Shown here piece after piece: positions 3,997 to 41,092 of a stretch of 42,320 bases of DNA. Both the position numbers and the translations under genes were made by a program. The DNA is taken from contig NZ_JAKDLO010000014.1 of assembly GCF_030452765.1 (NCBI RefSeq), positions 1-42,320 of the forward strand. The letters run 5' to 3'. The stretch's first letter is position 1. Each line of letters starts with the position of its first letter. A model generated the notes under the pieces. That model was not told the origin of the DNA. It saw only the letters and a list, made by a program, of their open reading frames with translations, and made no database searches. This DNA comes from Intrasporangium sp. (GTDB taxonomy: Bacteria > Actinomycetota > Actinomycetes > Actinomycetales > Dermatophilaceae).

Positions 3997-4066
3997 GACG
4001 TAAGAGTAGCGCCACCTTCGTCATTACGCTCACTCAGCGTTCTCGCTGCCCCCGGCTACCCGACGG

Positions 4067-23033: not shown

Positions 23034-24647
23034 TCAGCGGTCACGGGCCTGAGCCCGGACCTCGAACTTCTGGATCTTGCCGGTCGCGGTCTTGGGCAGC
23101 GCGTCGACGAGCCGGACGACCTCGGGCACCTGGAAGCCGCCGAGGCGCGACCTCGCGTACTCGATGACACGGTCGGGCAGCTCGCCGACCGGGACCGTGC
23201 CGTCCGGCACGACGACGGCGCACACTGCCTCTCCCCAGCGTTCGTCCGGCACTCCGACGACGCTGCACTCAGCGACGCCCGGCGCGGCCAGCACCGTCGC
23301 CTCGACGGCCACCGAGGAGACGTTCTCGCCGCCGGACTTGATGATGTCCTTGAGCCGGTCGGTGAACCAGACGACGCCCTCGCTGTCCACGTGCCCGATG
23401 TCGCCGGAGTGGAACCAGCCGTTCGCGAAGGCTTCCTGGTTCGCCGCCGCGTTGTTCCAGTAGCCGAGGCAGACGTTCGGAGCCCGGTAGACGATCTCGC
23501 CGGTCTCCCCCTGGCCGAGCAGGTCGCCGTCGGGCCGGCTCATCGTCCGGGTCAGCACGCTGGGCACCTGCGGACCCCAAGAGGCCGCAGCCGTGTGCCG
23601 GTGCTCTGGCCACTGCATCACGGTCGCCGGGACCACCTCGGTCTGCCCGGAGCCGAGGATGACGGCCGCGTTGGGGTACATCTCGTCGACCTTGGCCAGC
23701 AGGTTCTCCGGCATCGGCGCCATCGCATAGATGGCGCACTCGACCGAGGTGAGGTCTCGTGGGGTGCGAGCCTGCTCCGCGGCGCACGCCGCGTGCATCA
23801 TCGGCAGCATCATGACGTGGGTCGCGTGGTGTGCGCTCAGCGCATCGAGCACGGCGGCCGGATCGAAGCCCGCGCCGGGTAGCACGACGGTGCCGCCCAT
23901 CATGATGACCGGCATGGCGAGTGTGTTCAGGGCGGTCACGTGGAAGAGCGGCAGGACCACGAGCATGACCGGCGGCTCCGACCCCCACCGCTGCCGCGTC
24001 ACGATCGCGTTGCTCAGCAGGCCGATGGTCACCGACACGTGGCTCGTCAGCACGCCCTTGGGCCGTGACGTCGTGCCGGACGTGTAGAGGCACTGGACCG
24101 CGCCGCGCTCGTCGACCATGGCGTCGAGCGGTCCCTCCATCCCTGTGGCGACGAGGCCGTCCCAGCCGATCGTGCGTCGGTCTGCGACCGGCGCCGGTTC
24201 GTCCTCGGCGACTACTACGGTGGCGATGGACGCCGCGCCGGTGACGATGCCCTCGGCCTTTTGGCGCAGTGCCGGGTCAACAACGAGGATCGGCGCCTCG
24301 GCGTCCCCGACGATCCACGTGAGGTCCTCTGCCGTGAGCATGACGTTGAGCGGCAGGCAGACGAGTCCCGCCCGGGCGCAGGCGTAGTACGTCGCGAGCA
24401 TCCGCCACGAGTTGGTCATCAGGAGCGCGACCGGGGTGCCCGGCCCGAGCCCGAGCCCGAGCAGGGCATGCCCGAGGCGGTCTGCGGTCTGGGCAAGCTC
24501 ACGGAAGGTCACCTCGCGTGTCCCGTCGATCACCGCCCTCCGCTCGGGGAAGAGGGCTGCGGTGCGGGTCAGGGTGTCCCCGACGTTCACGCGCGTGGCA
24601 AGGTGATGGTCGAGCGGGTCGACCAGGGAGAGGTCCGGCTGCATCAT
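23034..24647 (-). CDS. acyl-CoA synthetase (AMP-forming; AtuH/FadD-like)
   Basis: LYTSGTTSRPKGV, GEIVYRAPNVCLGYWNN, WFHSGDIGHVDSEGVVWFTDRLKDIIKSGGENVSSVAVE, PKTATGKIQKFEVR. Confidence 0.9.
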   Translation of the reverse strand: MMQPDLSLVDPLDHHLATRVNVGDTLTRTAALFPERRAVIDGTREVTFRELAQTADRLGHALLGLGLGPGTPVALLMTNSWRMLATYYACARAGLVCLPLNVMLTAEDLTWIVGDAEAPILVVDPALRQKAEGIVTGAASIATVVVAEDEPAPVADRRTIGWDGLVATGMEGPLDAMVDERGAVQCLYTSGTTSRPKGVLTSHVSVTIGLLSNAIVTRQRWGSEPPVMLVVLPLFHVTALNTLAMPVIMMGGTVVLPGAGFDPAAVLDALSAHHATHVMMLPMMHAACAAEQARTPRDLTSVECAIYAMAPMPENLLAKVDEMYPNAAVILGSGQTEVVPATVMQWPEHRHTAAASWGPQVPSVLTRTMSRPDGDLLGQGETGEIVYRAPNVCLGYWNNAAANQEAFANGWFHSGDIGHVDSEGVVWFTDRLKDIIKSGGENVSSVAVEATVLAAPGVAECSVVGVPDERWGEAVCAVVVPDGTVPVGELPDRVIEYARSRLGGFQVPEVVRLVDALPKTATGKIQKFEVRAQARDR

Positions 24648-24735: not shown

Positions 24736-25578
24736 TCAGTCGAGGAAGATGTCCTTCTGCAGCTGGTCGTCCGTGCCGCCGTAGACCGACAGGTCGGTCA
24801 TGCCGGCCTCGCGCAGCACCTCGTCGTCGATGAAGAAGTTGCCGGTGCACTCGCGTGGGTCGCGGGTGAGGATGACGTATGCCGCGTCCGCCACGATCTC
24901 GGGGCTGCGGCTGGCCTGTATGGCCGTGTCGCCGCCAAGCAGGTTCTGGACCGCCGCGGTCGCGATGAGGGTGCGGGGCCAGAGGCTGTTGGCCGCGATC
25001 CCCGCCTCCCGCAGCTCTTCGGCGAGCCCGAGAGTGACCAGGCTCATGCCGTACTTCGCGATCGTGTAGCCGAGGTGCCCGCCGGCCCACTTCGGGTTGA
25101 GGTTGAGCGGCGGCGACATGGTGAGCACGTGGGCGGCGTCAGACTGCTCGAGATGCGGGAGTGCGGTCTTGGCCAGCAGGAACGACCCACGGCAGTTGAT
25201 GTCCTGCATCAGGTCGTACTTCTTCATCGACAGGCTGGACGTGGGTGACAGGTCGATGGCGCTGGCGTTGTTGACGACGATGTCGATCCCGCCGAACCTC
25301 TCGACGGTCCGGGCCATGGCGTCGGCCACGGAGGCGTCGTCGCGCACGTCTCCGACGATGGGAAGCGCGTGCCCACCTGCCTCTTCGATCTCTGCGGCTG
25401 CCGTGTGGATGGTGCCCTCGAGACGTGGGTCGGGCTGGTCGGTCTTGGCGAGCAGGGCGACGTTGGCGCCATCCCGGGCGGCGCGCAGTGCGATGGCCAG
25501 CCCGATGCCGCGGCTGCCGCCGGACATGATGATGGTGCGGTTTGCGAGTGTGCGTTGGGCGCTCTGTTCTTCGGTCAT
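24736..25578 (-). CDS. short-chain dehydrogenase/reductase (AtuB/AtuG- or HSDL2-like)
   Basis: IMSGGSRGIGLAIALRAARDGANVALLAKT, NNASAIDLSPTSSL, LGYTIAKYGMSLVTLG; start refined to MTEEQSAQ at 25578. Confidence 0.88.
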   Translation of the reverse strand: MTEEQSAQRTLANRTIIMSGGSRGIGLAIALRAARDGANVALLAKTDQPDPRLEGTIHTAAAEIEEAGGHALPIVGDVRDDASVADAMARTVERFGGIDIVVNNASAIDLSPTSSLSMKKYDLMQDINCRGSFLLAKTALPHLEQSDAAHVLTMSPPLNLNPKWAGGHLGYTIAKYGMSLVTLGLAEELREAGIAANSLWPRTLIATAAVQNLLGGDTAIQASRSPEIVADAAYVILTRDPRECTGNFFIDDEVLREAGMTDLSVYGGTDDQLQKDIFLD

Positions 25579-25610: not shown

Positions 25611-26756
25611 TCACGCGGGCAGCCCGTCGAGCCGGGCGAGAACCTGGAGCATGACCTCGTCGGCTCCGCCGCCGATCGACGCGAGTCGTGCGTCCCGGTA
25701 GAACCGCGAGGTCCATGTCTCCTCGACGTAGCCCATACCGCCATGGAACTGCAGGCACGTGTCGGCGACCTCACGGACGAGGCGGCCGGCGGTGAGCTTG
25801 GCGACCGAAGCCATCCGGGTGATGTCCTCGCGGGCCATCCGGGCCTCGCACGTCTCGCGGTTGTGGCTGCGCAGCAGGTCGACCTTGGCCTGCAGCTCGG
25901 CGAGGCGGAAGGCGACATACTGCTTCGACGCGAGGGGGGTGCCGAAGACGCTCCGCTCCGCCACGAACCGTCGGGTCTGCTCGAGTGCCCGGTCGCACTG
26001 ACCGACGGTGGTGTAGGCGGCCGACATCCGCTCGATGACGAACTGCTGCATCTGCTGCTGGAAGCCGCGACCGACCTCTCCGATCGTGTTCGCCACCGGG
26101 ACCCGCACATCCTCGAGCACGATCTCGGCCGTGTCGGAGGCATGGTTGCCCAGCTTGTCGAGGGTCCGGCTGACCGTGAACCCCGGCGTCGTGGTCGGGA
26201 CGACGATCTGCGAGATGCCGCGGTAGCCGCCCTCGTCGGAGGTCCGTGCGAGCAGACAGACCCAGTCGGCCTGGGCACCGTTGGTGATGAACATCTTGCG
26301 TCCGGAGACCACCCAGTCACCTCCGTCACGTCGAGCACGGGTACGCAGGCGCGCGACGTCCGAACCGGTGTCCGGCTCGGTCACCGCGATCGCCGCAACA
26401 GCCTCCCCGGCGATGGCCGGGGCGAGGAATGCGACCTTCTGCTCGTGCGTGCCGAGCTCGGCGAGCGATGGTGTCGCCATCATCGACTGCACCCCGATGG
26501 CCATGCTCACCCCGGCCGAGGCCATCCGGCCGAGCTCCTCACACGCGACCATCTGGTAGGAGTGGTCCGCCCCCAGCCCGCCGTAGGCGGGGTCGTACTC
26601 GATGCCGAGCAGCCCGACCTCGGCCGCCTTCGGGAAGACGTCGTGGGCGGGGAAGGCTCCGTCGCGCTCCCAGTCGTCGGCGCACGGGTTGACCACGGTG
26701 TCGACGAAGTGCCGGACACTCTTGCGGAAGTCGTCGTGGTCTTCGGTGAGGCGCAT
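25611..26756 (-). CDS. acyl-CoA dehydrogenase (AtuD-like)
   Basis: AIAVTEPDTGSDVARLRTRARRDGGDWVVSGRKMFITNG; LQFHGGMGYVEETWTSRFYRDARLASIGGGADEVMLQVLARLDGLPA. Confidence 0.92.
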   Translation of the reverse strand: MRLTEDHDDFRKSVRHFVDTVVNPCADDWERDGAFPAHDVFPKAAEVGLLGIEYDPAYGGLGADHSYQMVACEELGRMASAGVSMAIGVQSMMATPSLAELGTHEQKVAFLAPAIAGEAVAAIAVTEPDTGSDVARLRTRARRDGGDWVVSGRKMFITNGAQADWVCLLARTSDEGGYRGISQIVVPTTTPGFTVSRTLDKLGNHASDTAEIVLEDVRVPVANTIGEVGRGFQQQMQQFVIERMSAAYTTVGQCDRALEQTRRFVAERSVFGTPLASKQYVAFRLAELQAKVDLLRSHNRETCEARMAREDITRMASVAKLTAGRLVREVADTCLQFHGGMGYVEETWTSRFYRDARLASIGGGADEVMLQVLARLDGLPA

Positions 26757-26785
26757 GGACAGACGGTAGACGGGAAGTCACCAAG

Positions 26786-26807
26786 AAACAAGCAGGCTTG
26801 CTTGTTT
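26786..26807. promoter_or_regulatory. Palindromic operator AAACAAGCA-GGCT-TGCTTGTTT in divergent promoter
   Basis: Perfect 9-bp arms between ACDH (-) and AtuA (+); near-identical copy at 39019-39042. Confidence 0.85.
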
Positions 26808-26835
26808 TGGGTTCGGTGTGCCACGCTGCGGTGTC

Positions 26836-28611
26836 ATGAGCGACACGAGCGCATCGCCGGACTCGGCCGAGGTCCTGCGCATCGGAAACTGCTCGGGCTT
26901 CTACGGCGACCGGCTCTCGGCGATGCGCGAGATGCTCGAGGGCGGCCCGCTCGACGTCCTCACCGGCGACTACCTCGCCGAGCTGACCATGCTCATCCTC
27001 GGCCGCGACCGGGCCAGGGATCCCGGGCTCGGCTATGCCCGAACCTTCCTGCGCCAGCTCGAGGACTGCCTCGGGCTCGCCAAGGACAAGGGCGTGCGCA
27101 TCGTCGTCAACGCCGGCGGCCTGGCCCCACACGGCTGCGCCGCCGCTGTCCATGACCTCGCCGCCCGTCTGGGGCTCGACGTCTCGGTCGCCGTCGTCGA
27201 CGGTGACGACCTGACCGACCGGGCGGCCGAGCTCGGCCTGGGCACGCCTCTTGCCGCGAACGCCTATCTCGGCGGGTTCGGCATCGCCGCCGCCTGCCGG
27301 GCCGGTGCCGAGGTCGTCGTCACCGGACGGGTCACCGACGCGTCGGTGGTGGTCGGCCCGGCGATCGCCCACTTCGGCTGGGGCCGAACGGAGTTCGACG
27401 CCATAGCGGGGGCCATGGCGGCAGGTCACGTCATCGAGTGCGGCACCCAGGCGACCGGTGGCAACCTCGCCTTCTTCCGCGAGATCCCCGACCTGACCAG
27501 GCCCGGGTTCCCGGTCGCGGAGATCCACCGTGACGGCTCGTGCGTCGTCACGAAGCACCCCGGCACGGGTGGCGCGGTGACCCTCGACACGGTCCTGTCC
27601 CAGCTGCTCTACGAGGTGCAGGACGCCCGCTACGCGGGGCCCGACGCCGTGCTCCGACTCGACTCGATCACGCTCGCGCAGGAGGGCCCGGACCGCGTCC
27701 TCGTCACCGGCGTCCACGGCGAGGTACCGCCCCCGGACGTCAAGGTCTCGTGCACGAGCATCGGCGGCTACCGGAACGAGATGACGTTCGTGCTGACCGG
27801 GCTCGACATCGACGCCAAGGCCGACCTCGCCCGGCGACAGGTCGAGACGGCACTGCCGGTCCGCCCCACCGAGCTGACCTGGACCCTCGCCCGCACCGAC
27901 CACGACGACCCCGACACCCAGGCTCGCGCCGCAGCGACGCTCACCGTCGTGGCTCGAGACCCGGACGAGCGCAACGTCGGGCGCGCCTTCTCAGGCGCTG
28001 CTGTCGAGATCGTCCTGGCGACCTACCCCGGGTGCTTCCTGACCAGCCCACCGGGTGGCGGCTCCGCATACGGCGTCTACCGGCCCGCCTACGTGCCTCA
28101 GGATGTGCCCGTGCACACCGTGACCCTGCCCAGCGGTGAGCGCCGAATCATCGAGCCGCCTTCGACGACAAGGCAGCTCGAGCCCCTCGCCGACGACCCA
28201 GCCGCGCCGGAAGCTCGCGCGCCGGGCGAAGCGGGCTCAGCGGCATACGAACCGGTTGTCACTGCCCCTCTCGGGACGATCGTCGGCGCCCGGTCCGGGG
28301 ACAAGGGCGGCAACGCGAACGTCGGCGTGTGGGTGCGCTCGGACGACGAGTTCGCTTGGCTGGATGGCTTCCTCACGGTCGAGCGGCTCCACGCGCTCCT
28401 TCCGGAGACGCGCGACCTGACGGTCACGCGCACCCGGCTCCCGCGGCTTCGCGCGCTCAACTTCGTCATCGAAGGCCTGCTCGGCGAAGGGGTCGCGTAT
28501 GCCGCTCGCTTCGACCCGCAGGCCAAGGCACTCGGCGAGTGGCTGAGGGCGCGCCACGTCGACCTGCCGACCCGACTGCTGCCCACGACCGAGGAGGTCG
28601 AGCACGCATGA
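26836..28611 (+). CDS. AtuA-like acyclic terpene utilization protein (DUF1446) with C-terminal extension domain
   Basis: RIGNCSGFYGDRLSAMREMLEGGPLDVLTGDYLAELTMLILGRDRARDPGLGYARTFLRQLE; VVNAGGLAPHGCAAAV; VVTGRVTDASVVVGPAIAHFGW; C-terminal GARSGDKGGNANVGVWVRSD. Confidence 0.9.
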   Translation: MSDTSASPDSAEVLRIGNCSGFYGDRLSAMREMLEGGPLDVLTGDYLAELTMLILGRDRARDPGLGYARTFLRQLEDCLGLAKDKGVRIVVNAGGLAPHGCAAAVHDLAARLGLDVSVAVVDGDDLTDRAAELGLGTPLAANAYLGGFGIAAACRAGAEVVVTGRVTDASVVVGPAIAHFGWGRTEFDAIAGAMAAGHVIECGTQATGGNLAFFREIPDLTRPGFPVAEIHRDGSCVVTKHPGTGGAVTLDTVLSQLLYEVQDARYAGPDAVLRLDSITLAQEGPDRVLVTGVHGEVPPPDVKVSCTSIGGYRNEMTFVLTGLDIDAKADLARRQVETALPVRPTELTWTLARTDHDDPDTQARAAATLTVVARDPDERNVGRAFSGAAVEIVLATYPGCFLTSPPGGGSAYGVYRPAYVPQDVPVHTVTLPSGERRIIEPPSTTRQLEPLADDPAAPEARAPGEAGSAAYEPVVTAPLGTIVGARSGDKGGNANVGVWVRSDDEFAWLDGFLTVERLHALLPETRDLTVTRTRLPRLRALNFVIEGLLGEGVAYAARFDPQAKALGEWLRARHVDLPTRLLPTTEEVEHA

Positions 28612-30206
28612 CGATCCTGCGCAGCACCATCGACCCGACGAGCGAGGACTCCCGAGCCAACGCCGAGGCGATGACGGCCCAGCTGGCCGAGATCGACGCG
28701 CAGCTCGCCCTGGCCATCGCCGGCGGCGGCGAACGAGCGGTCGCGCGACACCGCAGCCGCGGCAAGCTCACCGCCCGCGAACGGGTCGAGCTGCTCCTCG
28801 ACCGGGACGCGCCGTTCCTCGAACTCGCGCCGTTCGCCGGGTACGGTAGTCGGTTCACGGTGGGTGGCAGCGTCGTCGCGGGGATCGGGGTGATCGAGGA
28901 CGTCGAGTGCATGGTCATCGCGAACGACCCGACGGTCAAGGGCGGTGCGAGCAACCCGTCGTCGGTCAAGAAGACGCTGCGGATGCACGACATCGCCCGG
29001 CAGAACCGGCTGCCGGTCATCAGCCTCGTCGAGTCGGGCGGCGCCGACCTGCCCACGCAGAAGGAGATCTTCATCCCGGGCGGCGCGATCTTCCGCAACC
29101 TCACGCGGCTGTCCGCGGCCGGCATCCCGACGATCGCGCTCGTCTTCGGCAACTCGACCGCGGGCGGGGCCTACCTACCGGGGATGAGCGACCACGTCGT
29201 CATGATCGAGGAGCGCTCGAAGGTGTTCCTCGGTGGGCCCCCACTCGTCAAGGCGGCGACCGGCGAGGAGTCCGACGACGAGTCGCTCGGTGGGGCGGCG
29301 ATGCACGCGCGGGTCTCGGGACTCGCCGACTACTACGCCCTCGACGAGCAGGACGCGATCCGGATCGGGCGGCGCGTCGTCGCTCGGCTGAACCGACGCA
29401 AGGCGCTCGATCCCGTGACGGCCGCCCCGAGGCCGCCGAGGTACGCCGTCGACGACCTGCTCGGCATCGTGCCCCCCGACCTGAAGAACCCGTTCGACCC
29501 GCGTGAGGTCATCGCCCGGATCGTCGACGACTCGGACTTCGACGAGTTCAAGCCGCTCTACGGCAGCTCGCTGGTCACCGGGTGGGCGCAGCTGCTCGGC
29601 TATCCGCTCGGCATCCTCGCCAACGCTCGCGGCGTCCTCTTCAGCGAGGAGGCCCAGAAGGCAGCGCAGTTCATCCAACTGGCCAACCAGAGCGACACAC
29701 CGCTGCTGTTCCTGCACAACACGACCGGATACATGGTCGGCAAGGAGTACGAGCAGGGCGGCATCATCAAGCACGGCGCGATGATGATCAACGCCGTGTC
29801 CAACTCGACCGTCCCGCACATCTCGGTCCTGCTCGGCAACTCGTACGGCGCCGGGCACTACGGCATGTGCGGGCGTGCCTACGAGCCGAGGTTCGTCTTC
29901 ACCTGGCCGAGCGCCCGCAGCTCGGTGATGGGAGCACAACAGCTCGCCGACGTCACCTTCAACGTCTCGCGCGTCTCGGCCCTCGCCCAAGGCAAGCCGT
30001 TCGACGAGGAAGGCGCGCTCGCCGTCCGGGCCGCCATCGAACAGCAGATCACCGCCGAGGCCCTGCCGCTCGTGCTGTCCGGTCTCGTCTACGACGACGG
30101 CATCATCGACCCACGCGACACGCGGTCCGTCCTCGGTATCGCCCTGTCTGCGATCCACAACGCGCCGATCGAGGGCACGACCTCGTTCGGCGTCTTCCGG
30201 ATGTGA
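28608..30206 (+). CDS. acyl-CoA carboxylase carboxyltransferase (beta) subunit, AtuC/LiuB-like
   Basis: GKLTARERVELLLDRDAPFLEL; SVKKTLRMHDIARQNRLPVISLVESGGADLPTQ; LHNTTGYMVGKEYEQGGIIKHGAMMINAVSNSTVPHISVLLGNSYGAGHYGMCGRAYEPRF. ATGA overlap with AtuA. Confidence 0.9.
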   Translation: MTILRSTIDPTSEDSRANAEAMTAQLAEIDAQLALAIAGGGERAVARHRSRGKLTARERVELLLDRDAPFLELAPFAGYGSRFTVGGSVVAGIGVIEDVECMVIANDPTVKGGASNPSSVKKTLRMHDIARQNRLPVISLVESGGADLPTQKEIFIPGGAIFRNLTRLSAAGIPTIALVFGNSTAGGAYLPGMSDHVVMIEERSKVFLGGPPLVKAATGEESDDESLGGAAMHARVSGLADYYALDEQDAIRIGRRVVARLNRRKALDPVTAAPRPPRYAVDDLLGIVPPDLKNPFDPREVIARIVDDSDFDEFKPLYGSSLVTGWAQLLGYPLGILANARGVLFSEEAQKAAQFIQLANQSDTPLLFLHNTTGYMVGKEYEQGGIIKHGAMMINAVSNSTVPHISVLLGNSYGAGHYGMCGRAYEPRFVFTWPSARSSVMGAQQLADVTFNVSRVSALAQGKPFDEEGALAVRAAIEQQITAEALPLVLSGLVYDDGIIDPRDTRSVLGIALSAIHNAPIEGTTSFGVFRM

Positions 30207-30213
30207 GGCACTG

Positions 30214-32289
30214 ATGACGACCACGAACGCCACCACGAGCGCGGGCTCGGTCGCCGGCCGACCGATCACGAGTGTCCTGGTCGCCAACCGCGGCGAGATC
30301 GCTCGGCGCGTCTTCGCCACCTGCCGCCGCCGCGGGATCGCTACCGTCGCCGTCTACTCCGACGCCGACGCCGACAGCCCCCATGTCACCGAGGCCGATG
30401 CGAGCGTCCAGCTGCCAGGCACGGCTCCTGCCGAGACCTACCTGCGCGGCGACCTTGTCATCGCGGCCGCCTTGCGTGCCGGCGCCGATGCGATCCACCC
30501 GGGCTACGGCTTCCTCTCCGAGAACGCCGACTTCGCGGCTGCCGTGCAGGAGGCGGGGCTCACGTGGATCGGACCTGACCCCAAGGCGATCCGGCTCATG
30601 GGCTCGAAGGTCGAGTCGAAGCAGCTCATGGCCGATGCCGGCGTCCCGGTGCTCGACCGCCTCGATCCGGACGACATCACCGAGGCTGACCTGCCCGTCC
30701 TCGTCAAGGCATCGGCCGGCGGCGGTGGGCGCGGGATGCGCATCGTCCGGACGCCGGCCGAAGTGCTCGATGCGGTCGCGAGCGCCGCTCGTGAGGCGGC
30801 GAGCGCCTTCGGTGACCCGACGGTCTTCTGCGAGCGCTACCTCGAGTCGGGGCACCATGTCGAAGTACAGGTCATGGCCGACGCCCACGGCACCGTATGG
30901 GCCCTCGGCGAACGCGAGTGCTCGCTCCAGCGGCGTCACCAGAAGGTCATCGAGGAGGCGCCCTCACCGCTGGTCGAGCACGTCGGCGCAGACATGCGCG
31001 AGCGCCTCCTCGCCGCGGCACGCAATGCAGCGACGGCCGTCGACTACCGCAGCGCCGGCACGGTCGAGTTCCTCGCGGACGACACCGGCCGCTTCTGGTT
31101 CCTCGAGATGAACACGAGGCTGCAGGTCGAGCACCCCGTCACCGAGAGCGTCACCGGGCTCGACCTCGTCGGCCTCCAGCTCGACGTGGCCGCCGGGCTG
31201 GCCCTGCAGGGCGACGAGCCGACGATGACCGGTCACTCGATCGAGGCGCGCCTCTACGCCGAGGACCCCGCCCGCGACTGGCAGCCCCAGAGCGGCACCG
31301 TGCACGTGCTCGATGTCCCCGGCGTCACGACGCAGTTCGCGATCCCCGAGCACCACGGCATCCGCCTGGACGCCGGCGTGCGCGAAGGCACCGTCGTCGG
31401 AGTCAGCTACGACCCCATGCTCGCCAAGGTCATCTCCCGGGCACCGACCCGCCACGAGGCGGCCCGTGAGCTCGCGTCCGCCCTGCGCCGAGCGCGCATC
31501 CACGGCCTGACCACCAACCGCGACCTGCTCGTCGCGAGCCTGCTGCACCCGGACTACCTGTCCGGCACGGCGGACACCCGGTTCTACACGCAGCACGACC
31601 CGGCAGAGCTGGCAAGCAGCATCGGACTCGACCCCGCCCTGGGTGCTCTCGTCGCGGCGCTTGCCGATGCTTCCGCCCAACGCGCGAACTCGCCCGTCCT
31701 GCAAGGGATCCCGAGCGGGTTCCGCAACGTGCCGGGAGGCTTCCAACGGCGCAGCTACACGATCCGGGCAGACGAGCTCCCCGTCGCCTACCGCATCATC
31801 CGCCGGGGGCTCGAGCTCGAGCGCCTGCCAGACGGGGTCGGCACCATCGGGCTCCTCGCGGCCGCGCCGGACCGGGTCGTCCTCGATCTCGACGGGGTGC
31901 GGCGACAGTACACAGTCGCTCGTTTCACCTCCGGCGACGTGACGTCCGTCGTGGTCGACGGCGCCGAGGGGAGCATCACCCTGCATGCCGTGCCCCGTTT
32001 CGTCGACCCGTCGACCCAGGTGCAGGCCGGCGCGCTGGTGGCCCCGATGCCGGGCACGATCGTGCGGGTAGCGGTGGTCCAGGGCAGCCACGTCGAGCCC
32101 GGCCAACCGCTGCTGTGGCTCGAGGCGATGAAGATGGAGCATGCCGTCACGGCGACGACCGCCGGTGTCGTGAACCACGTCCACGTCGTCCTCGGCCAGC
32201 AGGTGGACCAGGCCACTACCCTCGCGGTGGTCGATGACGCACCGACCGAGACCGACCAGGACGAGACGATGGAGGACACCACACCATGA
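30214..32289 (+). CDS. biotin carboxylase/BCCP (alpha) subunit, AtuF/LiuD-like
   Basis: VLVANRGEIARRVFATCRRRGI, HPGYGFLSENADFA, ASAGGGGRGMRIV, FLEMNTRLQVEHPVTESVTGLDLV, biotinylation LWLEAMKMEHAVTATTAG. Confidence 0.92.
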   Translation: MTTTNATTSAGSVAGRPITSVLVANRGEIARRVFATCRRRGIATVAVYSDADADSPHVTEADASVQLPGTAPAETYLRGDLVIAAALRAGADAIHPGYGFLSENADFAAAVQEAGLTWIGPDPKAIRLMGSKVESKQLMADAGVPVLDRLDPDDITEADLPVLVKASAGGGGRGMRIVRTPAEVLDAVASAAREAASAFGDPTVFCERYLESGHHVEVQVMADAHGTVWALGERECSLQRRHQKVIEEAPSPLVEHVGADMRERLLAAARNAATAVDYRSAGTVEFLADDTGRFWFLEMNTRLQVEHPVTESVTGLDLVGLQLDVAAGLALQGDEPTMTGHSIEARLYAEDPARDWQPQSGTVHVLDVPGVTTQFAIPEHHGIRLDAGVREGTVVGVSYDPMLAKVISRAPTRHEAARELASALRRARIHGLTTNRDLLVASLLHPDYLSGTADTRFYTQHDPAELASSIGLDPALGALVAALADASAQRANSPVLQGIPSGFRNVPGGFQRRSYTIRADELPVAYRIIRRGLELERLPDGVGTIGLLAAAPDRVVLDLDGVRRQYTVARFTSGDVTSVVVDGAEGSITLHAVPRFVDPSTQVQAGALVAPMPGTIVRVAVVQGSHVEPGQPLLWLEAMKMEHAVTATTAGVVNHVHVVLGQQVDQATTLAVVDDAPTETDQDETMEDTTP

Positions 32290-33077
32290 GCGACAAGCCC
32301 ACCGGCCCGCGCGTCGCAGTCGAGACCTCAGGGGGTGTCGCCCGGATCGCCCTCGACTCGCCGCACAACCGAAACGCCCTGTCGGACCAGCTCGTCCGAG
32401 ACCTGCGCGACGCGCTCACGGCGGCCGAGTCCGACGGCTCCGTGCGCACCGTCATCCTCACCCACACGGGAGGCACCTTCTGCGCCGGGGCCGACCTCAC
32501 CGAGGCGTCGAGCGGACCGGCCGGCGACCCGGCTCGAGCCCGCGCCGACCAGCTCATCGACCTGCTCCAGGCGATCGTCGCCCTGGGCAAGCCGGTCATC
32601 GGACGCATCGACGGGCATGTCCGCGCCGGCGGCATGGGACTCGTGTCGGCCTGCGACGTCGTCGTCGCCGGCCCCAGGTCGACGTTCGCCCTGACCGAGT
32701 CCCGGCTCGGGCTGGCCCCCTCGGTCATCTCCCTGACGGTGGTACCCCGCTTGACGAGCCGGGCTGCCGCGGAGTTCTTCCTGACCGGCGACAAGTTCGA
32801 CGCAGCCCGCGCGGCTCAGATCGGGCTCGTCTCTCGGGCCGTCGACAGCTCGGACGAGGTCGAGGCCTCCGTCGTCGGGTTCGTCGCGTCCTTCGCCGCC
32901 TGCTCCCCGCAGGGCCTGCGGGAGTCCAAGGCACTGCTCAACCACCACCTGCTCGAGGCGTTCGCGGCCGACCGCGACCGGCTCGCCGACCAGTCCTCAA
33001 GGCTCTTCGCGAGCGAAGAGGCCCGCGAGGGGATGGCGGCCTTCCTCGAACGGCGCCCGCCACGCTGGACGAGCTGA
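32286..33077 (+). CDS. enoyl-CoA hydratase/isomerase (AtuE/LiuC-like)
   Basis: GGVARIALDSPHNRNALSDQLVRDL; TGGTFCAGADLTEA; VRAGGMGLVSACDVVVAGPRSTFALTESRLGLAPSVIS. ATGA-type overlap with the upstream gene. Confidence 0.9.
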   Translation: MSDKPTGPRVAVETSGGVARIALDSPHNRNALSDQLVRDLRDALTAAESDGSVRTVILTHTGGTFCAGADLTEASSGPAGDPARARADQLIDLLQAIVALGKPVIGRIDGHVRAGGMGLVSACDVVVAGPRSTFALTESRLGLAPSVISLTVVPRLTSRAAAEFFLTGDKFDAARAAQIGLVSRAVDSSDEVEASVVGFVASFAACSPQGLRESKALLNHHLLEAFAADRDRLADQSSRLFASEEAREGMAAFLERRPPRWTS

Positions 33078-33114
33078 GTCCGCCTCCGGCCGCACCTACC
33101 CACGAACAGCGCTC

Positions 33115-33720
33115 ATGAGCACCGTGACGGAGCCGAAACAGGACCGCAGCCGCCTCACTCGGCAACGGATCCTCGAAGCCACCGTGCAGTCGCTCGCCTC
33201 CCGCGGGTGGGAGGCCTCGTCGGTCGCGGTCATCGCCGCTGACGCGGGCACGAGCCGCGGCGCGCTGCAGCACCACTTCCCGACCCGCGAGGACCTCATC
33301 GTCGCGGCCCTGGACTTCATGTTCGAGAAGCGCTCAGAGCTCGTCAGGACGGTCACCGTTCCCGATCTCACCGGTACCGAGCGGGTCGCCCACGTGCTGC
33401 ACACGATCATCGAGGTCTATGTCGGAACGCTGTTCGGGGCCGCCCTGCAGGTGTGGACGGCGGCAGCCGCCGACGAGGTGCTGCGCGACCGGATCGTCCC
33501 CCTGGAGCGCAAGTTCGGCAGCGGCGTCCACGCCATGACGATCAGGCTGCTCGGGGTGGACGACACCGATCCGCACGTCCGCACCCTGATCCAAGCGACG
33601 CTGGACATGATCCGCGGTCTCGCGCTGGCCGATCTCCTCACCGACGACTCACGGCGGCGCCGCCGCGTCGTCGGCGCCTGGGCACAGCAACTCTCGGAAG
33701 GTCTCGGCCTGACCGAATAG
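33115..33720 (+). CDS. TetR family transcriptional regulator (candidate AtuR-like regulator of the cluster)
   Basis: RSRLTRQRILEATVQSLASRGWEASSVAVIAADAGTSRGALQHHFPTREDLIVAAL; last gene of the rightward cluster. Confidence 0.85.
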   Translation: MSTVTEPKQDRSRLTRQRILEATVQSLASRGWEASSVAVIAADAGTSRGALQHHFPTREDLIVAALDFMFEKRSELVRTVTVPDLTGTERVAHVLHTIIEVYVGTLFGAALQVWTAAAADEVLRDRIVPLERKFGSGVHAMTIRLLGVDDTDPHVRTLIQATLDMIRGLALADLLTDDSRRRRRVVGAWAQQLSEGLGLTE

Positions 33721-33954
33721 CAGCCCGTATGCCGCTCAACACCCCTCCACTCACAGGTGCACTCCCGCTGGAGCCCCCCGACCCCGGATGTGCCTGCCCG
33801 GCCACGTCGACGTGATCCGGCCGATTTGCGTGACAGGCCGCGCACGCCGTCTGCGAGAGCTTCTCTCCGCCCACTATGACGTAGGTCGAGAGCGGGGCCC
33901 TGAACACCGCCGCGTTCGAGGATGTGCATCCTGCGTCTTCGGTAATCTGAAGCC

Positions 33955-34179
33955 ATGTCCTTGCTGGAGCGCATCACCATAGACCCGGAAGTGGTCCACG
34001 GCCGTCCTGCTGTCCGTGGCACTCGGATGCGTGTCGCCGATGTCCTCTCCCTGCTCGCTTCCGGCGCCAGTGAGGGGGAGATCCTGGAGGACTACCCCTA
34101 CCTCTCTGCGGACGACATCAAGGCTTGTCTCGCATACGCGGCAGCCCAGGCCGACCACGCTGTCGTGATCGCTTCGTAG
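33955..34179 (+). CDS. DUF433 domain antitoxin (VapB-like)
   Basis: RITIDPEVVHGRPAVRGTRMRVADVLSLLASGASEGEILEDYPYLSADDIKACLAYAA. Confidence 0.9.
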   Translation: MSLLERITIDPEVVHGRPAVRGTRMRVADVLSLLASGASEGEILEDYPYLSADDIKACLAYAAAQADHAVVIAS

Positions 34180-34184
34180 ACGCG

Positions 34185-34514
34185 GTGCGCTTCCTGATCG
34201 ACGCCCAACTGCCGCCAGCACTTGCGCGGCTACTGAACGACCGAGCCCACGTCGCCGAGCATGTCAATGCCATCGGATTGGGTGAGTCACCCGATCGGGA
34301 CTTGTGGCGCTATGCCCTCGAACATGGAGCGGCCATCGTGACCAAGGACGAGGATTTCGGCAACATGGCAGCCCTCGGCGGTGACGCTCCCACGGTCGTG
34401 TGGGTGCGTGTCGGCAACACGCGACGCACCGCGCTGCTGGCTTGGTTCGAGCCGCTGATCGATGATGTCGTTTCGCTGATCGAGGCGGGCAATCGGCTCA
34501 TCGAACTACGTTGA
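34185..34514 (+). CDS. DUF5615 PIN-like toxin
   Basis: VRFLIDAQLPPALARLLND...HVAEHVNAIGLGESPDRDLWRYALEHGAAIVTKDEDFGNMA; GTG start at 34185, 5 nt after the antitoxin stop. Confidence 0.88.
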   Translation: MRFLIDAQLPPALARLLNDRAHVAEHVNAIGLGESPDRDLWRYALEHGAAIVTKDEDFGNMAALGGDAPTVVWVRVGNTRRTALLAWFEPLIDDVVSLIEAGNRLIELR

Positions 34515-34789
34515 GCCAACCGAGCGCCCGCGAACAACCGCTTCGCCCCGCCGCCGCGCGTCCCGTGCCAGCGTCATACCGCCGCGTGAAGGTCCACCCC
34601 CAACGCCGCATGGCGGTGCGGATCGCGGAGATCGCGGAGAACCCGCAGCGGCTTCGACCACCACGGCGTCCACTTCTTGACCGTCTCGTCGCCGGCGTCT
34701 GGCCGACCATTCCTCAGCCCGTGCCCCGTGCCGATTCCTCCCAGTAGCGGCGACAAGTACGACCGGGGCTGTCCACGCCGATCGAGTTC

Positions 34790-35167
34790 TCAGCCTGGGG
34801 AGCCGGACTCGTCAGCCTCGTCGAATGCCTGGAGCGAGGCGATGACTCCCTCAAGCTGCGCGAACCTACGCGGTACATCGTCGGTCCCCGCGGTGACCAG
34901 CGTCTCGACATCATGTCCCAGTAGCCGTGGACGATTCGATTGCGCAGGCGCGCGGCCGCGCGCCAAGCAATCTCAGGATGGGACTCCTGCACCTGCGAGG
35001 GCACTTGGCTCGCGGCTTCACCGAGGACGTCGGTGAAGTGCCACAGGAGGGCCGGACGTCGGATGCCGTCGGCTTCAACCCGCTCGGCACTTCGACTGCC
35101 GACGAGATCACGGATCGGCGCGCCTGCGTCGACGCTTCTCACGCAGCAGGAGAAGCTCACGCCGCAT
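34790..35167 (-). pseudogene. HEPN (DUF86/HepT-like) toxin, apparently frameshifted
   Basis: Fragments MRRELLLLRE | VDAGAPIRDLVGSRSAERVEADGIRRPALLWHFTDVLGEAASQV...ESHPEIAWRAAARLRNRIVHGYWD | DVETLVTAGTDDVPRRFAQLEGVIASLQAF lie in different frames. RN-X4-H motif RNRIVHGYW present. Confidence 0.75.
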
Positions 35168-35441
35168 AGAGAGTCTTGGCATCGGAGAGCACTCGCTCCC
35201 GGATGTACCTGTTGATCGAGTTGCGCGCGACCAGATCGACCGGGCGGCCGAAGAGGGCGGACAGCTCGTCTTCGAGGTCGAACAGCGTGAAGCCGAGGCG
35301 CACCCCCGGCCTCAGGACGTAGAGCAGGTCAAGGTCACTGTCGGGTCCATTCTCGCCACGCGCGACCGAGCCGAACACCTCCAAGGAGGCGACGCCATAG
35401 CGCTCGCACACCTCGCGCAAACGGGGCAGGTCAGCTTCCAC
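35157..35441 (-). CDS. MNT nucleotidyltransferase (minimal NTase antitoxin, MntA-like)
   Basis: VASLEVFGSVARGENGPDSDLDLLYVLRPG (GSxARG-x-SDxDL). Start approximate; the ORF is open to 35636. Confidence 0.8.
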   Translation of the reverse strand: MEADLPRLREVCERYGVASLEVFGSVARGENGPDSDLDLLYVLRPGVRLGFTLFDLEDELSALFGRPVDLVARNSINRYIRERVLSDAKTLYAA

Positions 35442-35544
35442 GGCGACCACCGACCGATCGTATCGGAGGCGTGATGCGGCTGGATCGGATCGGGCCGAGC
35501 CCAGGACCCGGAATCGGGCCCGGCCCCCCGCACGTGCGCGAGCG

Positions 35545-36924
35545 TCATACCTGTGGTCTCGGCGCGCCGGACGCGGAGCTGGACGCAGTGCTGTTCGTCC
35601 CGGGCCTATGCTCGCTCTGGTCGCCGCGGCTATCACCTCTGCCGCGGTACTCGTGGTTGTCGGCCTCTGGGGTCTGCGGATCGAGAACCATCTGGTCGCG
35701 GCGACGGGTCAGGTAGGCCACCTCGGCGGTGTTGCCCGCCAGCTCGATCGCCCTGTCGTAGGCCCGGCGCGACTCCTGACTGCGGCCCACCCGGCGCAGC
35801 AGGTCCGCTCGGGCCGCGTGGAAAGCGTGATAGCCGGCCAGCTGGTCCTCGAGACCGTCCACCAGGGCCATTGCGACGTCCGGGCCGTCGAGCTCGGCCA
35901 GAGCGACGGCCCGGTTGAGGGCGACGACCGGCGACGGATCCAGGCGGACCAGCTGGTCGTAGAGGGCGACGACCTGCGACCAGTCGGTGTCGCCAGCATC
36001 GCGGGCGGAGGTGTGCACGGCGTTGATCGCGGCCAGGATCTGGTAGCGGCCCGGAGGTACTCCCGAGGACAGGCGCTGACGCACCAACCGATGACCCTCG
36101 CTGACCAGAGCCGGGTCCCAGGCCCCCCGGTCCTGCTCGCCGAGAGGGACCAGCTCGCCAGTCGCCGAGACCCGGGCGACACGGCGGGCCTCGGTGAGCA
36201 GCATCAGCGCAAGCAGTCCGGCCACCTCGCCGTCCTGCGGCAGGAGGGCACGGACCAGGCGAGTGAGCCGGATCGCCTCGCCGGTCAGGTCGGGACGGAC
36301 GGGACCGGTGCCGAGGCCGGTGGCCAGGTAGCCCTCGTTGAAGACGAGGAAGAGGACGGCCAGCACGCCGGAGACACGGGTGGGCAGATCCTCGGCGGCC
36401 GGCACCCGATATGGGATGCGCGCCGCCTTGATCTTGGCCTTCGCGCGGGTGATCCGCTGCGCCATGGCGGTCTCCCGCACCAGGAACGCCCGAGCGATCT
36501 CGGGCACGGTCAGCCCGGCGACCATGCGCAGCGTGAGAGCCACCCGTGCCTCCGTCGCGAGCGCCGGGTGGGCGCAGGTGAAGACGAGCCGAAGCCGGTC
36601 GTCGTCGATGACGCCGAGGGGCTCCGGTGGGTTGTTGCCGGACAAGAGCTGGGCCTCCCGCTCCTTGTCGTCTCGTCTGTGCTCGCGCCGGATCCGGTCG
36701 ATGGCCTTGCGGCCCGCGGTGGTCGTCAGCCAGGCACCGGGGTTGGGCGGTATGCCGTCCACCGGCCACCGCGCCGCCGCAGTCGCGAACGCCTCGGCCG
36801 CCGCTTCCTCGGCGACGTCGAGGTCACCGAACCGCTTGGCCAGGGCGGCGACCAGCCGCGCCCACTCCACCTGGTGGGCCTCGTTGATCGCCTCCCTGAC
36901 GTCGAGGATGCTCTGCCTGCTCAC
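35545..36924 (-). CDS. ECF RNA polymerase sigma factor (ECF42-like, with C-terminal TPR-like region)
   Basis: VEWARLVAALAKRFGDLDVAEEAAAEAFATAAARWPVDGIPPNPGAWLTTTAGRKAIDRIRR; VPEIARAFLVRETAMAQRITRAKAKI; long C-terminal LDPSPVVALNRAVALAELDGPDVAMALVDGLE. GTG start at 36924 overlaps the upstream TGA. Confidence 0.9.
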   Translation of the reverse strand: MSRQSILDVREAINEAHQVEWARLVAALAKRFGDLDVAEEAAAEAFATAAARWPVDGIPPNPGAWLTTTAGRKAIDRIRREHRRDDKEREAQLLSGNNPPEPLGVIDDDRLRLVFTCAHPALATEARVALTLRMVAGLTVPEIARAFLVRETAMAQRITRAKAKIKAARIPYRVPAAEDLPTRVSGVLAVLFLVFNEGYLATGLGTGPVRPDLTGEAIRLTRLVRALLPQDGEVAGLLALMLLTEARRVARVSATGELVPLGEQDRGAWDPALVSEGHRLVRQRLSSGVPPGRYQILAAINAVHTSARDAGDTDWSQVVALYDQLVRLDPSPVVALNRAVALAELDGPDVAMALVDGLEDQLAGYHAFHAARADLLRRVGRSQESRRAYDRAIELAGNTAEVAYLTRRRDQMVLDPQTPEADNHEYRGRGDSRGDQSEHRPGTNSTASSSASGAPRPQV

Positions 36925-37256
36925 AGGAACGGGCGCACCTCGACCTTGCGGTTGCACGCCCCCGACCCCTCGGCAGCGAGCCGCAGCGCCACGTCGAGGT
37001 CGGCCGCCTCGATGATCCAGAAGCCGGCAAGGTGCTCCTTCGACTCGACGAACGGCCCGTCGGTGAGCACCGCCTCACCATCACCGCGGTTGTCGATCAC
37101 CGTGGCCGTGCTGGGCGACCCGAGGCCGCCCGCGAAGACCCAGTGACCCTCGGACTGCAGCCGCTCGTTGAACACGTCGATCGCCGCGGCCTCGTCCGAT
37201 GTGGCGGAGCCGGCCGTGTCGTCGATCACGGAAACCAGGTACTGCATCTCGGTCAT
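36921..37256 (-). CDS. YCII/DGPF domain protein, sigma-factor partner
   Basis: MQYLVSVIDD...FNERLQSEGHWVFAGGLGSPSTATVIDNRGDGEAVLTDGPFVESKEHLAGFWIIEAADLDVALRLAAEGSGACNRKVEVRPFL (DGPF/Y-type motif). Confidence 0.9.
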   Translation of the reverse strand: MTEMQYLVSVIDDTAGSATSDEAAAIDVFNERLQSEGHWVFAGGLGSPSTATVIDNRGDGEAVLTDGPFVESKEHLAGFWIIEAADLDVALRLAAEGSGACNRKVEVRPFL

Positions 37257-37372
37257 CTCCTCAGCTCAGGACACGCCCCTCGTGGGCGCCTCCTACCCCA
37301 TCCACGAACGGTTCGGCCCCGATCCGACAACGCGCCGGGCACGATCCTCGGGACCGTGCACCGTGTTGTGGT

Positions 37373-38932
37373 TCAGCGCGTGACCTGGCTGGATGTCCCA
37401 CTGAAGGTCTCGCGCAGCCGGCGCTTGAGGATCTTGCCGGTGGCGGTGCGCGGCAGCTCGTCGATGAAGTGGACCTCCCGAGGCGCCTTGAAATGAGCGA
37501 CCCGCTCCCGGGTCCACTCCCGCAGCCCTTCGGGCGTCAACGTGGACTCGGACCTGACGACGACGACCGCGGTCACGTGCTCGCCCCACTGCTCGTCCGG
37601 GACGCCGATGACGGCGACCTCGGTGACGTCGGGGTGCTCGTAGAGGACCTTCTCCACCTCGATGGGATAGACGTTCTCGCCGCCGGTGATGACCATGTCC
37701 TTCTTGCGGTCGACGAGGGTGTAGAAGCCATCGTCGTCGACGCGGGCCATGTCGCCGGTGTGGAACCAGCCACCGCGCAGCGCCTGCGCGGTCTCGCCGG
37801 GGCGGTCCCAGTAGCCGACGAACACGTTCGGGCCCTGGATGCACAGCTCGCCGACCGCTCCGACCGGGACGTCGTGGTCCTCCTCGTCGAGGATCCGGAA
37901 CTCGTTGTGGTTGACCGGGCGACCGATCGAGCCGGCATGCTCGAGCACGTCCTCCGGAGCGAGACACGCCGCGATCGGGGAGGTCTCCGTCAGACCGAAG
38001 CCTTCGGTGAACGCCATACCCTGGCCCTGCAGCGCCCGGATGACCGGGATCGGGCAGGGAGCACCACCGGCCACGGCGAAGGTGAGCGATGACAGGTCAC
38101 GCCCGCTGCCGGGCAGTGCCTGCGCGATGGCCGCCCACATGGCCGGGACGTTGAACGCCTTGGTGATCCGGTACTTCTCGGCCGCCTCGAGCCAGCCGCC
38201 GGGGGTGAAGGTCTCGGTGATGACGGTGCACGCACCGATGTAGAGGAACGGCAGGGTGTGCACCCCGAGCGCACCGATGTGGAAGAGCGGCGCAGCCGAG
38301 ACCGTGACGTCGTCGCGCCCGATCCCCGAGCCGAACCCGAAGCAGTTGATCGCGTTGTAGAAGAAGTTGCGGTGGGTCAGCATCGCGCCCTTGGGCAGGC
38401 CGGTCGTGCCCGAGGTGTACATGATCACGCAGACGTCCGTCTCGGCGACGTCGCGCACGACTCGCTCCGGGGAGCCGGTGGCAAGGAGGGCCTCGTAGTC
38501 GCCACCGTCGCCGGCGGCCCGCTCGGCCGCGGTCGGGATGGCGATGTGGTGGCGCACCGAGGGGCTCTCGGTCAGGGCTGCCTCGACCGTCGCGGCGAGG
38601 TTGCTCGACGAGAAGAGGACGATGGCACCGGAGTCACCGAGCACGTAGGCGACCTCGCGTGGCGAGAGCCGGAAGTTCACCGGCACCCCGATCGCTCCGA
38701 GCTTGGCAGCCGCGAGATAGATCTCCATCATCTGCGGGCTGTTCAGCGTCAGCATCGCGACCCGGTCACCGCGGCGGACCCCCTTGCGGCTCAGGGCATC
38801 CGCGAGCCGGTTGGTGCTGGCGTCGAGGTCCCGGTATGTCGTCACCGCCCCGCTCGTCGCGTCGATCAGGGCCGCCCGATCCCCGTTGCGGACGGATTGG
38901 ACCGTCACCCAGTTGCCGTATCCGTGGTCCAT
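37373..38932 (-). CDS. long-chain fatty-acid-CoA ligase (FadD-like)
   Basis: [100 protein letters not shown]. Start refined to MDHGYGNWV at 38932 with GGGAG SD. Confidence 0.9.
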
Positions 38933-39018
38933 GTCGTCTCCCAATGGTCGGTGGCCACGCCCTGAACCCCTTGGAAGGACGGTAACCCTTGGCAGGGCCG
39001 CAGACGCCAACCCATCAG

Positions 39019-39042
39019 AAAACAAGCAGACTTGCTTGTTTT
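39019..39042. promoter_or_regulatory. Palindromic operator AAAACAAGCA-GACT-TGCTTGTTTT in divergent promoter
   Basis: Perfect 10-bp arms; core identical to 26786-26807 except one central base. Confidence 0.85.
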
Positions 39043-39069
39043 GCTGCTTCTGTGCCACGCTGCCATGTC

Positions 39070-39861
39070 ATGAGCGATGCTGTGGCTGCGACCGTGCAGT
39101 CGTTCCTCGACGAGTGCGCGGATCTTGATCGTCTCGTGGCCGGGCTCCCGGCCGAGGACTGGGGCCGTGACACACCCGCAGTGGGGTGGACGGTCGCGCA
39201 CCAGGTCGCGCACCTGGCGTGGACGGACGAGGTGGCACTCCTCGCGCTGGTCGATACCGAGGCGTTCGCAGCCGCCGTCCAGGCAACCGCGGCAGACCCG
39301 ATCGGCTACGTGGACCGGGGGGCGGCGGCCGGCGCCATACCCCCGTATGCCGCTGTGCTGGCTCGGTGGCGAGCCGGACGTGAGGCGCTGGCTTCGGCGC
39401 TCCGCGCGGCCGACCCGAGCACGCCGGTGCCGTGGTTCGGGCCTCCGATGAGCCCTCGCTCGATGGCGACGGCCCGGCTGATGGAGGCGTGGGCCCACGG
39501 CCAGGACGTCGCCGACGCCCTGGGAGTCCGTCGGGCTCCGACCGACCGGCTCCGCGACATCTGCCACCTCGGCGTGCGCACTCGCGACTTCGGGTACCGG
39601 ATCAACGGCCTCGAGCCGCCCGCTGGGCCGTTCCGGGTCGAGCTCACCGGCCCAGGTGGTGAGGCGTGGACGTGGGGGCCGCAGGATGCTCCGGACCGGG
39701 TGCGCGGCAGCGCCGAGGAGTTCTGTCTGGTCGTCGCGCAGCGCCGCGAGGCCCCCGACACCGACCTGTTCACGCAGGGCGAGGCTACGCGCTGGCTCAC
39801 GTTCGCACAGGTCTTCGCGGGGGAACCCAAGAAGGCTGTTCGGGCAAGGAACCGAGCGTGA
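39070..39861 (+). CDS. TIGR03084-like / maleylpyruvate isomerase N-terminal (DinB-like) family protein
   Basis: DAVAATVQSFLDECADLDRLVAGLPAEDWGRDTPAVGWTVAHQVAHLAWTDEVALLAL; LMEAWAHGQDVADALGVRR; start MSDAVAAT at 39070. Confidence 0.8.
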   Translation: MSDAVAATVQSFLDECADLDRLVAGLPAEDWGRDTPAVGWTVAHQVAHLAWTDEVALLALVDTEAFAAAVQATAADPIGYVDRGAAAGAIPPYAAVLARWRAGREALASALRAADPSTPVPWFGPPMSPRSMATARLMEAWAHGQDVADALGVRRAPTDRLRDICHLGVRTRDFGYRINGLEPPAGPFRVELTGPGGEAWTWGPQDAPDRVRGSAEEFCLVVAQRREAPDTDLFTQGEATRWLTFAQVFAGEPKKAVRARNRA

Positions 39862-39922: not shown

Positions 39923-41092
39923 ATGAGCCATCGGCACTGGGAGACAACGGAGCTGCAGGCGTTGCGCGCGACGACGACCCAGTTCGTCCGGCGCGAGGTA
40001 CTCCCCAACCAGGACGACTGGGAACGCATCGGCGAACTGCCTCGCGACCTGTCCCGCAAGGCCGGCGCGCTGGGGCTGCTCGGCGTCGGCTTCCCGGAGC
40101 AGGCCGGGGGCGGTGGCGCCGGCCTGCGCGAGGTCGTGACGGTCATCGAGGCGTTTCATGAGACCGGCGGTGCGGCTGGTGTCAACGCCTCGCTCTTCAC
40201 CTCCGGCATCGCCTGCCCCCACATCGTCGCAGCCGGTGACCGGGCCCAGATCGACCGATGGGTCCGCCCGGCATTGGCCGGCGAGGCCATCGGGTCGCTG
40301 GCGATCACCGAGCCGGGCGCCGGGTCCGACGTCGGTGGACTGCGCACGACGGCACGCCGCGATGGCGCTCACTACGTCGTCAACGGGGCCAAGACGTTCA
40401 TCACCTCGGGGTGCCGCGCCGACTTCGTGACGACGGCAGCGCGCACCGGCGGCCCGGAGCTGCCCGGCGCGAGGGGGATCTCCCTCATCGTGATCGAGCG
40501 TGGGATGCCCGGCTTCGAGGTGTCGCGCAAGCTCGACAAGATGGGGTGGCGCTCGTCCGACACGGCAGAGCTGTCGTTCACCGACGTACGGGTCCCGGCG
40601 AGCCACCTCGTCGGTCCCGAGAACGCCGGCTTCGCCCTGATCGGCACGGCGTTCCTCTCCGAGCGGATCAGCCTTGCCGCCCAGGCATACTCACAGGCGC
40701 AGCGCTGCCTCGACCTCACCGCCCGGTGGTGCCGGCAGCGGGAGACCTTCGGGGAGCCGCTGATTGCCCGGCAGGGCGTACAGGGCACCCTGGCCCGGAT
40801 GGCCGGACGGATCGACGTGGCCCGCACGTACACCCGGGCTGTCGTGGACCGCTTCGAGGACGGCGAACCGGTCGCCGCCCTCGTCCCACAGGTGTGCTTC
40901 GCGAAGAACACCGCAGCCGAGACCGGGCAGTGGGTGGCGCACGAGGCCGTCCAGCTCTTCGGGGGCATGGGCTACATGACCGAGAGCGAGGTCGAGCGGC
41001 AGTACCGCGACATGCGCATCATCGGCATCGGGGGCGGCACCATCGAGATCCTCTACCAGCTCGCCGGGCGGCGGCTCGGCCTCACGACCTGA
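39923..41092 (+). CDS. acyl-CoA dehydrogenase
   Basis: GSLAITEPGAGSDVGGLRTTARRDGAHYVVNGAKTFITSG; LDKMGWRSSDTAELSFTDVRVP; QLFGGMGYMTESEVERQYRDMRIIGIGGGTIEILYQL. Confidence 0.92.
   Translation: MSHRHWETTELQALRATTTQFVRREVLPNQDDWERIGELPRDLSRKAGALGLLGVGFPEQAGGGGAGLREVVTVIEAFHETGGAAGVNASLFTSGIACPHIVAAGDRAQIDRWVRPALAGEAIGSLAITEPGAGSDVGGLRTTARRDGAHYVVNGAKTFITSGCRADFVTTAARTGGPELPGARGISLIVIERGMPGFEVSRKLDKMGWRSSDTAELSFTDVRVPASHLVGPENAGFALIGTAFLSERISLAAQAYSQAQRCLDLTARWCRQRETFGEPLIARQGVQGTLARMAGRIDVARTYTRAVVDRFEDGEPVAALVPQVCFAKNTAAETGQWVAHEAVQLFGGMGYMTESEVERQYRDMRIIGIGGGTIEILYQLAGRRLGLTT

Follow-up and report, generated by a model that had tools for sequence, protein, structure and literature searches.

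Several TetR-family regulators of catabolic operons have been described in bacteria. AtuR from Pseudomonas aeruginosa regulates growth on citronellol and geraniol (acyclic terpene utilization) and is reported to be encoded divergently from atuA and to bind two 13-bp inverted repeats in the gap between the genes (PMC3511530). BkaR (Rv2506/MSMEG_4718) recognises the operator GTTAnTnnnnAnTAAC, which occurs in two copies before bkaR, the operon also including bkd genes together with accA1/accD1 (PMC3920632), and KstR2 recognises the 14-bp motif AnCAAGnnCTTGnT with a 2-bp gap (PMC3068626). The AccA2-AccD2 carboxylase of M. tuberculosis has no assigned role and no known substrate (PMC4347857), and under hypoxia or in stationary phase the operon Rv0971c-Rv0976c is upregulated 20-300-fold (PMC9283954).

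Here, a window of 42,320 nucleotides from Intrasporangium sp. (NZ_JAKDLO010000014.1), corresponding to an entire contig of the assembly scanned, was analysed. We consider it highly probable that two palindromes in this window are the operators of a TetR-family protein, which would repress the adjacent genes until a ligand is bound, and that the promoter/operator region of an ancestral divergon was copied and the genes then divided between the two sites. The sites, their conservation, the gene orders, the co-occurrence and the covariation described below were all computed.

Two palindromic sites in divergent gene gaps

Operator 1 (26786..26807, AAACAAGCA-GGCT-TGCTTGTTT) and operator 2 (39020..39041, AAACAAGCA-GACT-TGCTTGTTT) are strand-neutral palindromes lying about 12 kb apart, with a single central-base difference in 22 bp. 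They share the architecture CAAGCA-N4-TGCTTG, that is, CAAG-N8-CTTG between the arms, and a profile built from 137 sites reads AArCAA(G/T)CAnG. When the sequence was re-read, the near identity claimed by a preceding sequence-only reading was recovered, and in dinucleotide shuffles of the window nothing comparable arose (four matches in 0/100). The resemblance continues beyond the palindrome, with 48/58 bp identical over the stretch from operator into gene, the same value as reported earlier. Compared with random window pairs, both flanks outside the operator are more alike than expected, the right one at 27/36 positions (P ~5e-6) and the left one at 17/31 (P ~0.002). As had also been noted, each operator centre lies 39.5 bp from the start codon to its right (ATG 26836 at site 1, ATG 39070 at site 2). 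Site 1 is nearly symmetric, the ATG of its divergent acyl-CoA dehydrogenase (26756) being 40.5 bp from the centre; at site 2, the divergent ligase starts 98.5 bp from it. The claim that no third copy exists stood up in a genome-wide scan, which found only these two sites at ≤3 mismatches over the 18 specified bases in the 4.6-Mb, 97%-complete assembly; a motif scattered over many unrelated loci would count against an operator role, and the scan shows otherwise.

The gap at site 1 separates two gene sets. On the minus strand lie an acyl-CoA dehydrogenase (acad, 25611..26756), the first gene of the divergent operon, a short-chain dehydrogenase (sdr, 24736..25578; NF006133) and an AMP-forming acyl-CoA ligase (fadD1, 23034..24647). 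The plus strand carries operon 1, comprising an AtuA-like protein (26836..28611; domain matches to PF07287 and PF23544), a biotin-dependent carboxyltransferase of the methylcrotonyl-CoA carboxylase beta type (accD, 28608..30206), a biotin carboxylase/carrier subunit with a BT_MCC_alpha domain (accA, 30214..32289), an enoyl-CoA hydratase (ech, 32286..33077) and, as its last gene, the TetR-family regulator (33115..33720). At site 2, a second AMP-forming acyl-CoA ligase (fadD2, 37373..38932, minus strand), which sits in the divergent operon of relatives, faces a TIGR03084-family protein of the MDMPI_N/DinB type (39070..39861, plus strand) and a second acyl-CoA dehydrogenase (acad2, 39923..41092, plus strand), which relatives have in operon 1. 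Against solved structures, the carboxyltransferase scores higher with methylcrotonyl-CoA carboxylase (3u9r, 562.8 bits) than with geranyl-CoA carboxylase (5ikl, 477.2 bits). All the enzyme classes of the Atu pathway (AtuA, carboxylase subunits, acyl-CoA dehydrogenase and enoyl-CoA hydratase) are encoded in the window, and "Atu-like" is a fair label for the gene set, substrate apart.

Between the two halves, directly 3' of tetR, there is a toxin-antitoxin-like pair of DUF433 and DUF5615 (PIN-like) proteins (33955-34514). It is followed on the minus strand by a region (34714-35480) in which a nucleotidyltransferase resembling the MntA antitoxin (54.4 bits, under its cutoff of 60) possibly forms an MntA/HepT-type pair with a small ORF that has no family match, and by a sigma factor of the ECF type extended at its C-terminus (35545-36957; sigma-70-like and DUF6596).

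Co-occurrence of the motif with the TetR-family regulator

The sequence-only reading had proposed the TetR at 33115-33720 as the regulator and its co-conservation with the motif as a check, which was carried out at two levels. A scan of 395 Actinomycetes genomes with the motif pattern alone, blind to genes, detected it in 37 genomes, most of which had a single site, and control patterns gave hardly any matches; in all 29 inspected loci (29/29) it lay directly upstream of an atuA-like or TIGR03084 gene. The TetR (E <= 1e-25) was present in every one of the motif genomes (37/37) and in 72 of the 358 remaining ones. Put the other way, the motif occurs in 37/109 genomes with the TetR and in 0/286 without it (Fisher 1e-23), a pattern consistent across families, with the p-values of these counts overstated and not to be taken literally, as related genomes are treated as independent. 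In the family sample, a site was found in 11/11 genomes with a close TetR orthologue and in 2/87 others, the latter only as 3-mismatch matches. It is extremely unlikely that the palindromes match by chance or belong to a repeat element devoid of regulatory role, and no point in favour of this was found: there are two copies only, both in promoters, at orthologous positions conserved across the class, and the class scan, the inspected loci and the comparison of atuA-bearing genomes given next all contradict it.

The dependence of the motif on the TetR or on the operon was compared over 2.5 kb upstream of atuA (some stretches being shorter), with 14 positions scored. Among 40 genomes with atuA and no TetR or only a weak match, of which 20 were mycobacterium-like (a label that rests on gene order and size) and 20 were others, no motif was found upstream of atuA at <=3 mismatches (0/40), the best matches averaging 4.8 and 4.65 mismatches, as in shuffled sequence. 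Two genomes counted here as TetR-negative (G374 and G200) have distant TetR matches of 1e-25 to 1e-29, where orthologues reach 1e-40 or better. Conversely, in 20 atuA stretches from genomes that have the TetR and had escaped the strict scan, the mean was 1.5 mismatches, with 17/20 at <=2. Among the loci reaching the first operon gene, 64/69 had a site within 260 bp upstream.

Gene layouts also vary around the site, which lies between fadD2 and tetR in Dietzia and between tetR and atuA in two further genomes (G459 and G437). In G437 and G328, the motif is found just upstream of a second TetR gene whose recognition helix is almost the same (SRGAQQHHYPT). These second-TetR operators (4056-4077 in locus L215 and 3882-3903 in L216) are located away from any atuA operon. 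In G042, the TetR is 42% identical and its recognition helix is unchanged, yet only degenerate sites are present. The one congener of the window organism in the sample, G001, is devoid of the TetR, atuA, TIGR03084 and the motif; because of this, by gene content, the cluster is taken to have been gained or lost within the genus.

Protein and site appear to have changed together as well. The helix SRGAQLHHFPSK replaces SRGAxQHHFPTR in family f45 and also in G028, and in both the half-site TTGACTGTTT replaces TGCTTGTTT, so that QLHHFPSK pairs with TGACTG; in f45, this variant site occurs before tetR-TIGR03084 and also before atuA. The variant loci are L294, L295, L281, L282 and L149. This is apparently a natural specificity switch within the TetR family to which the window regulator belongs.

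The window genome encodes further TetR proteins (34 candidates at first look), and it is conceivable that one of these or some other transcription factor binds both palindromes, the operon's TetR merely travelling with its genes. We regard this as very unlikely, considering that the motif tracks the TetR rather than the operon (0/40 genomes with atuA and no TetR), that helix and half-site covary, and that the motif stands directly before tetR in Dietzia and before a TetR with a near-identical helix elsewhere. The co-occurrence in class and family and the covariation favour the regulator first proposed, and both operators are very probably controlled by the TetR encoded between them.

Putative promoters and proposed mode of control

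Promoter hexamers were assigned by sequence comparison rather than with a promoter-prediction tool. At site 1, the rightward promoter of atuA has a putative -35 element, TTGCTT (26798..26803, plus strand), within operator 1, and a putative -10 element, CACGCT (26822..26827, plus strand), 8 nt before the ATG and reading CANNNT in most family relatives. For the divergent acyl-CoA dehydrogenase, the candidates are TTGTTT (26786-26791, minus strand) and TACCGT (26763..26768, minus strand), 6 nt before ATG 26756, at which -10 position 8 family relatives have a TA-containing hexamer. The resulting arrangements are TTGTTT-17-TACCGT leftward and TTGCTT-18-CACGCT rightward, and by this reading both transcripts should be leaderless or near-leaderless. 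At site 2, the rightward promoter of the TIGR03084 gene is retained, with a predicted -35 at the equivalent place (39032-39037) and, by comparison, a putative -10 of CACGCT (39056..39061, plus strand). The leftward -10 is not recognisable and looks decayed. The proposal that each site controls both divergent arms is supported for site 1 and for the rightward arm of site 2; control of fadD2 by operator 2 is doubtful, given the decayed leftward hexamer and a gene start 98.5 bp away.

Binding, repression, the ligand, these hexamer assignments and the pathway substrate are the steps that we infer. A TetR dimer on operator 1 would cover both divergent -35 elements and block both promoters, and a pathway intermediate, probably an acyl-CoA, would bind the TetR and free them. 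As tetR is the last gene of operon 1, the protein would repress its own synthesis, making the circuit self-limiting, and operator 2 would keep the exported genes under the repressor of operon 1. The regulator is assigned to its family by PF00440 (45.2 bits, above the cutoff of 24), and its AlphaFold2 model (pLDDT 90.8) has nine helices, among them the recognition helix SRGALQHHFPTRE. A Foldseek search with this model returned general TetR neighbours only, resembling KstR and B. subtilis FadR and equally QacR and others, and gave no indication of the ligand. KstR and B. subtilis FadR bind CoA thioesters, and acyl-CoA as the ligand of the window TetR is a guess from context.

Activators exist among TetR proteins and the operator overlaps the predicted -35, so that the TetR might bind both sites and activate, or the site might be mainly an RNA-polymerase element, with the regulon switched on. 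This seems unlikely to us, because the operator sits on the -35 and not upstream of it, and because BkaR and KstR2, the local TetR proteins of catabolic operons, are repressors (PMC3920632, PMC3068626).

Proposed origin of the split locus

Loci around 80 TetR orthologues were compared. The usual order, seen in Rhodococcus and many relatives, is site-TIGR03084-atuA-acad2-accD-accA-acad-ech-tetR, and in many Nocardia loci atuA is the first gene. Within the window's family, the operon of relatives faces acad-fadD2-sdr-fadD1 across the site (for example in L142; L140 is similar, without a detected fadD2). The gene set at site 2 (fadD2, TIGR03084 and acad2) is exactly what site 1 misses. The genes downstream of the two operators, previously called unrelated, are indeed so in sequence; in function they are not, as both stand in one operon of relatives. 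The N-terminus of the window AtuA, MSDTSASPDSAE, is absent from family relatives, and ATGAGCGACAC is the start of the TIGR03084 protein in G047 and G039. From these termini, the window atuA seems to have acquired a copied promoter and gene start of TIGR03084, which would account for two unrelated proteins having the same 39.5-bp distance to an operator centre.

The proposed ancestor would be a divergon with a single operator, acad-fadD2-sdr-fadD1 facing TIGR03084-atuA-acad2-accD-accA-ech-tetR. In the window lineage, the promoter/operator region would have been copied and the genes shared out between the copies, site 1 keeping fadD1-sdr-acad and atuA-accD-accA-ech-tetR, and site 2 keeping fadD2 and TIGR03084-acad2. 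Judging from the gene orders, the divergon was probably duplicated and then underwent reciprocal gene loss. It is also quite possible, though we hold this the more tentatively, that TIGR03084-acad2 relocated with its promoter and atuA acquired a second promoter copy, with no duplication of the whole divergon. In line with relocation, pseudogene remnants that would prove duplication were not found, and the TIGR03084-acad2 unit stands apart in G212, G295 and, with only degenerate sites, G042. Against it, site 2 also has fadD2, in the opposite orientation, and its left flank retains some similarity to that of site 1, which suits a copied divergon.

Whether by duplication or relocation, two-operator splits have, by these gene maps, occurred or persisted in several lineages, as separate second operators are carried by G212 (one site before TIGR03084-acad2, another before atuA-accD-accA-acad-tetR), G295 (sites before atuA in L284 and before TIGR03084-acad2 in L296) and G041 (where an additional site precedes an isolated acad2). 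In G057 (L152), accA-ech-tetR lies 3.3 Mb from TIGR03084-atuA-acad2-accD, possibly through an assembly error; accA is immediately preceded by a run of N, which may mark an assembly join, and this operon was set aside as a parallel. The window would be a clear case of an operon that was split with common control kept by operator copying, similar to the splits in other lineages.

Comparison with known systems

The Rv0971c-Rv0976c operon of M. tuberculosis (echA7-fadE12-accA2-accD2-fadE13-Rv0976c) has the same enzyme set as the Nocardia and Rhodococcus operon, and its gene order was met in three genomes. In the mycobacterium-like genomes sampled, the operon is present and the TetR and operator are absent. 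It appears likely that a new dedicated TetR repressor and its 22-bp operator govern the atuA/accD2-accA2-type operon across Actinomycetes, that the divergon of the window lineage was split after promoter/operator copying, and that mycobacterium-like genomes lost repressor and operator together. If so, this joint loss may underlie a different control of Rv0971c-Rv0976c, for which no function or direct regulator is assigned (PMC4347857, PMC9283954). The pair offers a testable regulator and operator for a conserved carboxylase operon. The ligand of a TetR that co-evolved with this operon is expected to be an intermediate of the pathway, and its identity would indicate the substrate.

The literature searched, outside subscription journals, contained no description of this regulator or of its motif; TIGR03084 gave no match, and the half-sites combined with TetR returned only unrelated papers and KstR/KstR2. 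Rv0158 of M. tuberculosis, whose knockout induces accA2/accD2, belongs to a different system with the motif YGGCGGBGMCGGCGG.

Among described regulators, AtuR is likewise a TetR-family protein adjoining atuA and genes for a geranyl/methylcrotonyl-type carboxylase. The window tetR differs in that it follows atuA in the same orientation and closes the operon, with one 22-bp palindrome per promoter; the divergent tetR and the two 13-bp repeats of the AtuR type are not found here. BkaR, AccR and PccD share with it an actinomycete TetR repressor, a methylcrotonyl-type carboxylase operon, a palindrome and divergent promoters, and were rejected as the regulator since the 137-site profile does not match the BkaR operator core. 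KstR2 has similar CAAG...CTTG half-sites, few sites per genome and one dimer site for two divergent genes. Its spacing is wrong for both window sites, however, and the genes for cholesterol degradation that KstR2 controls are not part of the window's gene content. By its predicted mode of action, the window TetR is a regulator that works like AtuR, BkaR or KstR2, and its operator sequence, operator spacing and gene layout distinguish it from all three; the kind of regulatory system is familiar, and the reading of its evolution, in which one locus was split, is the new addition.
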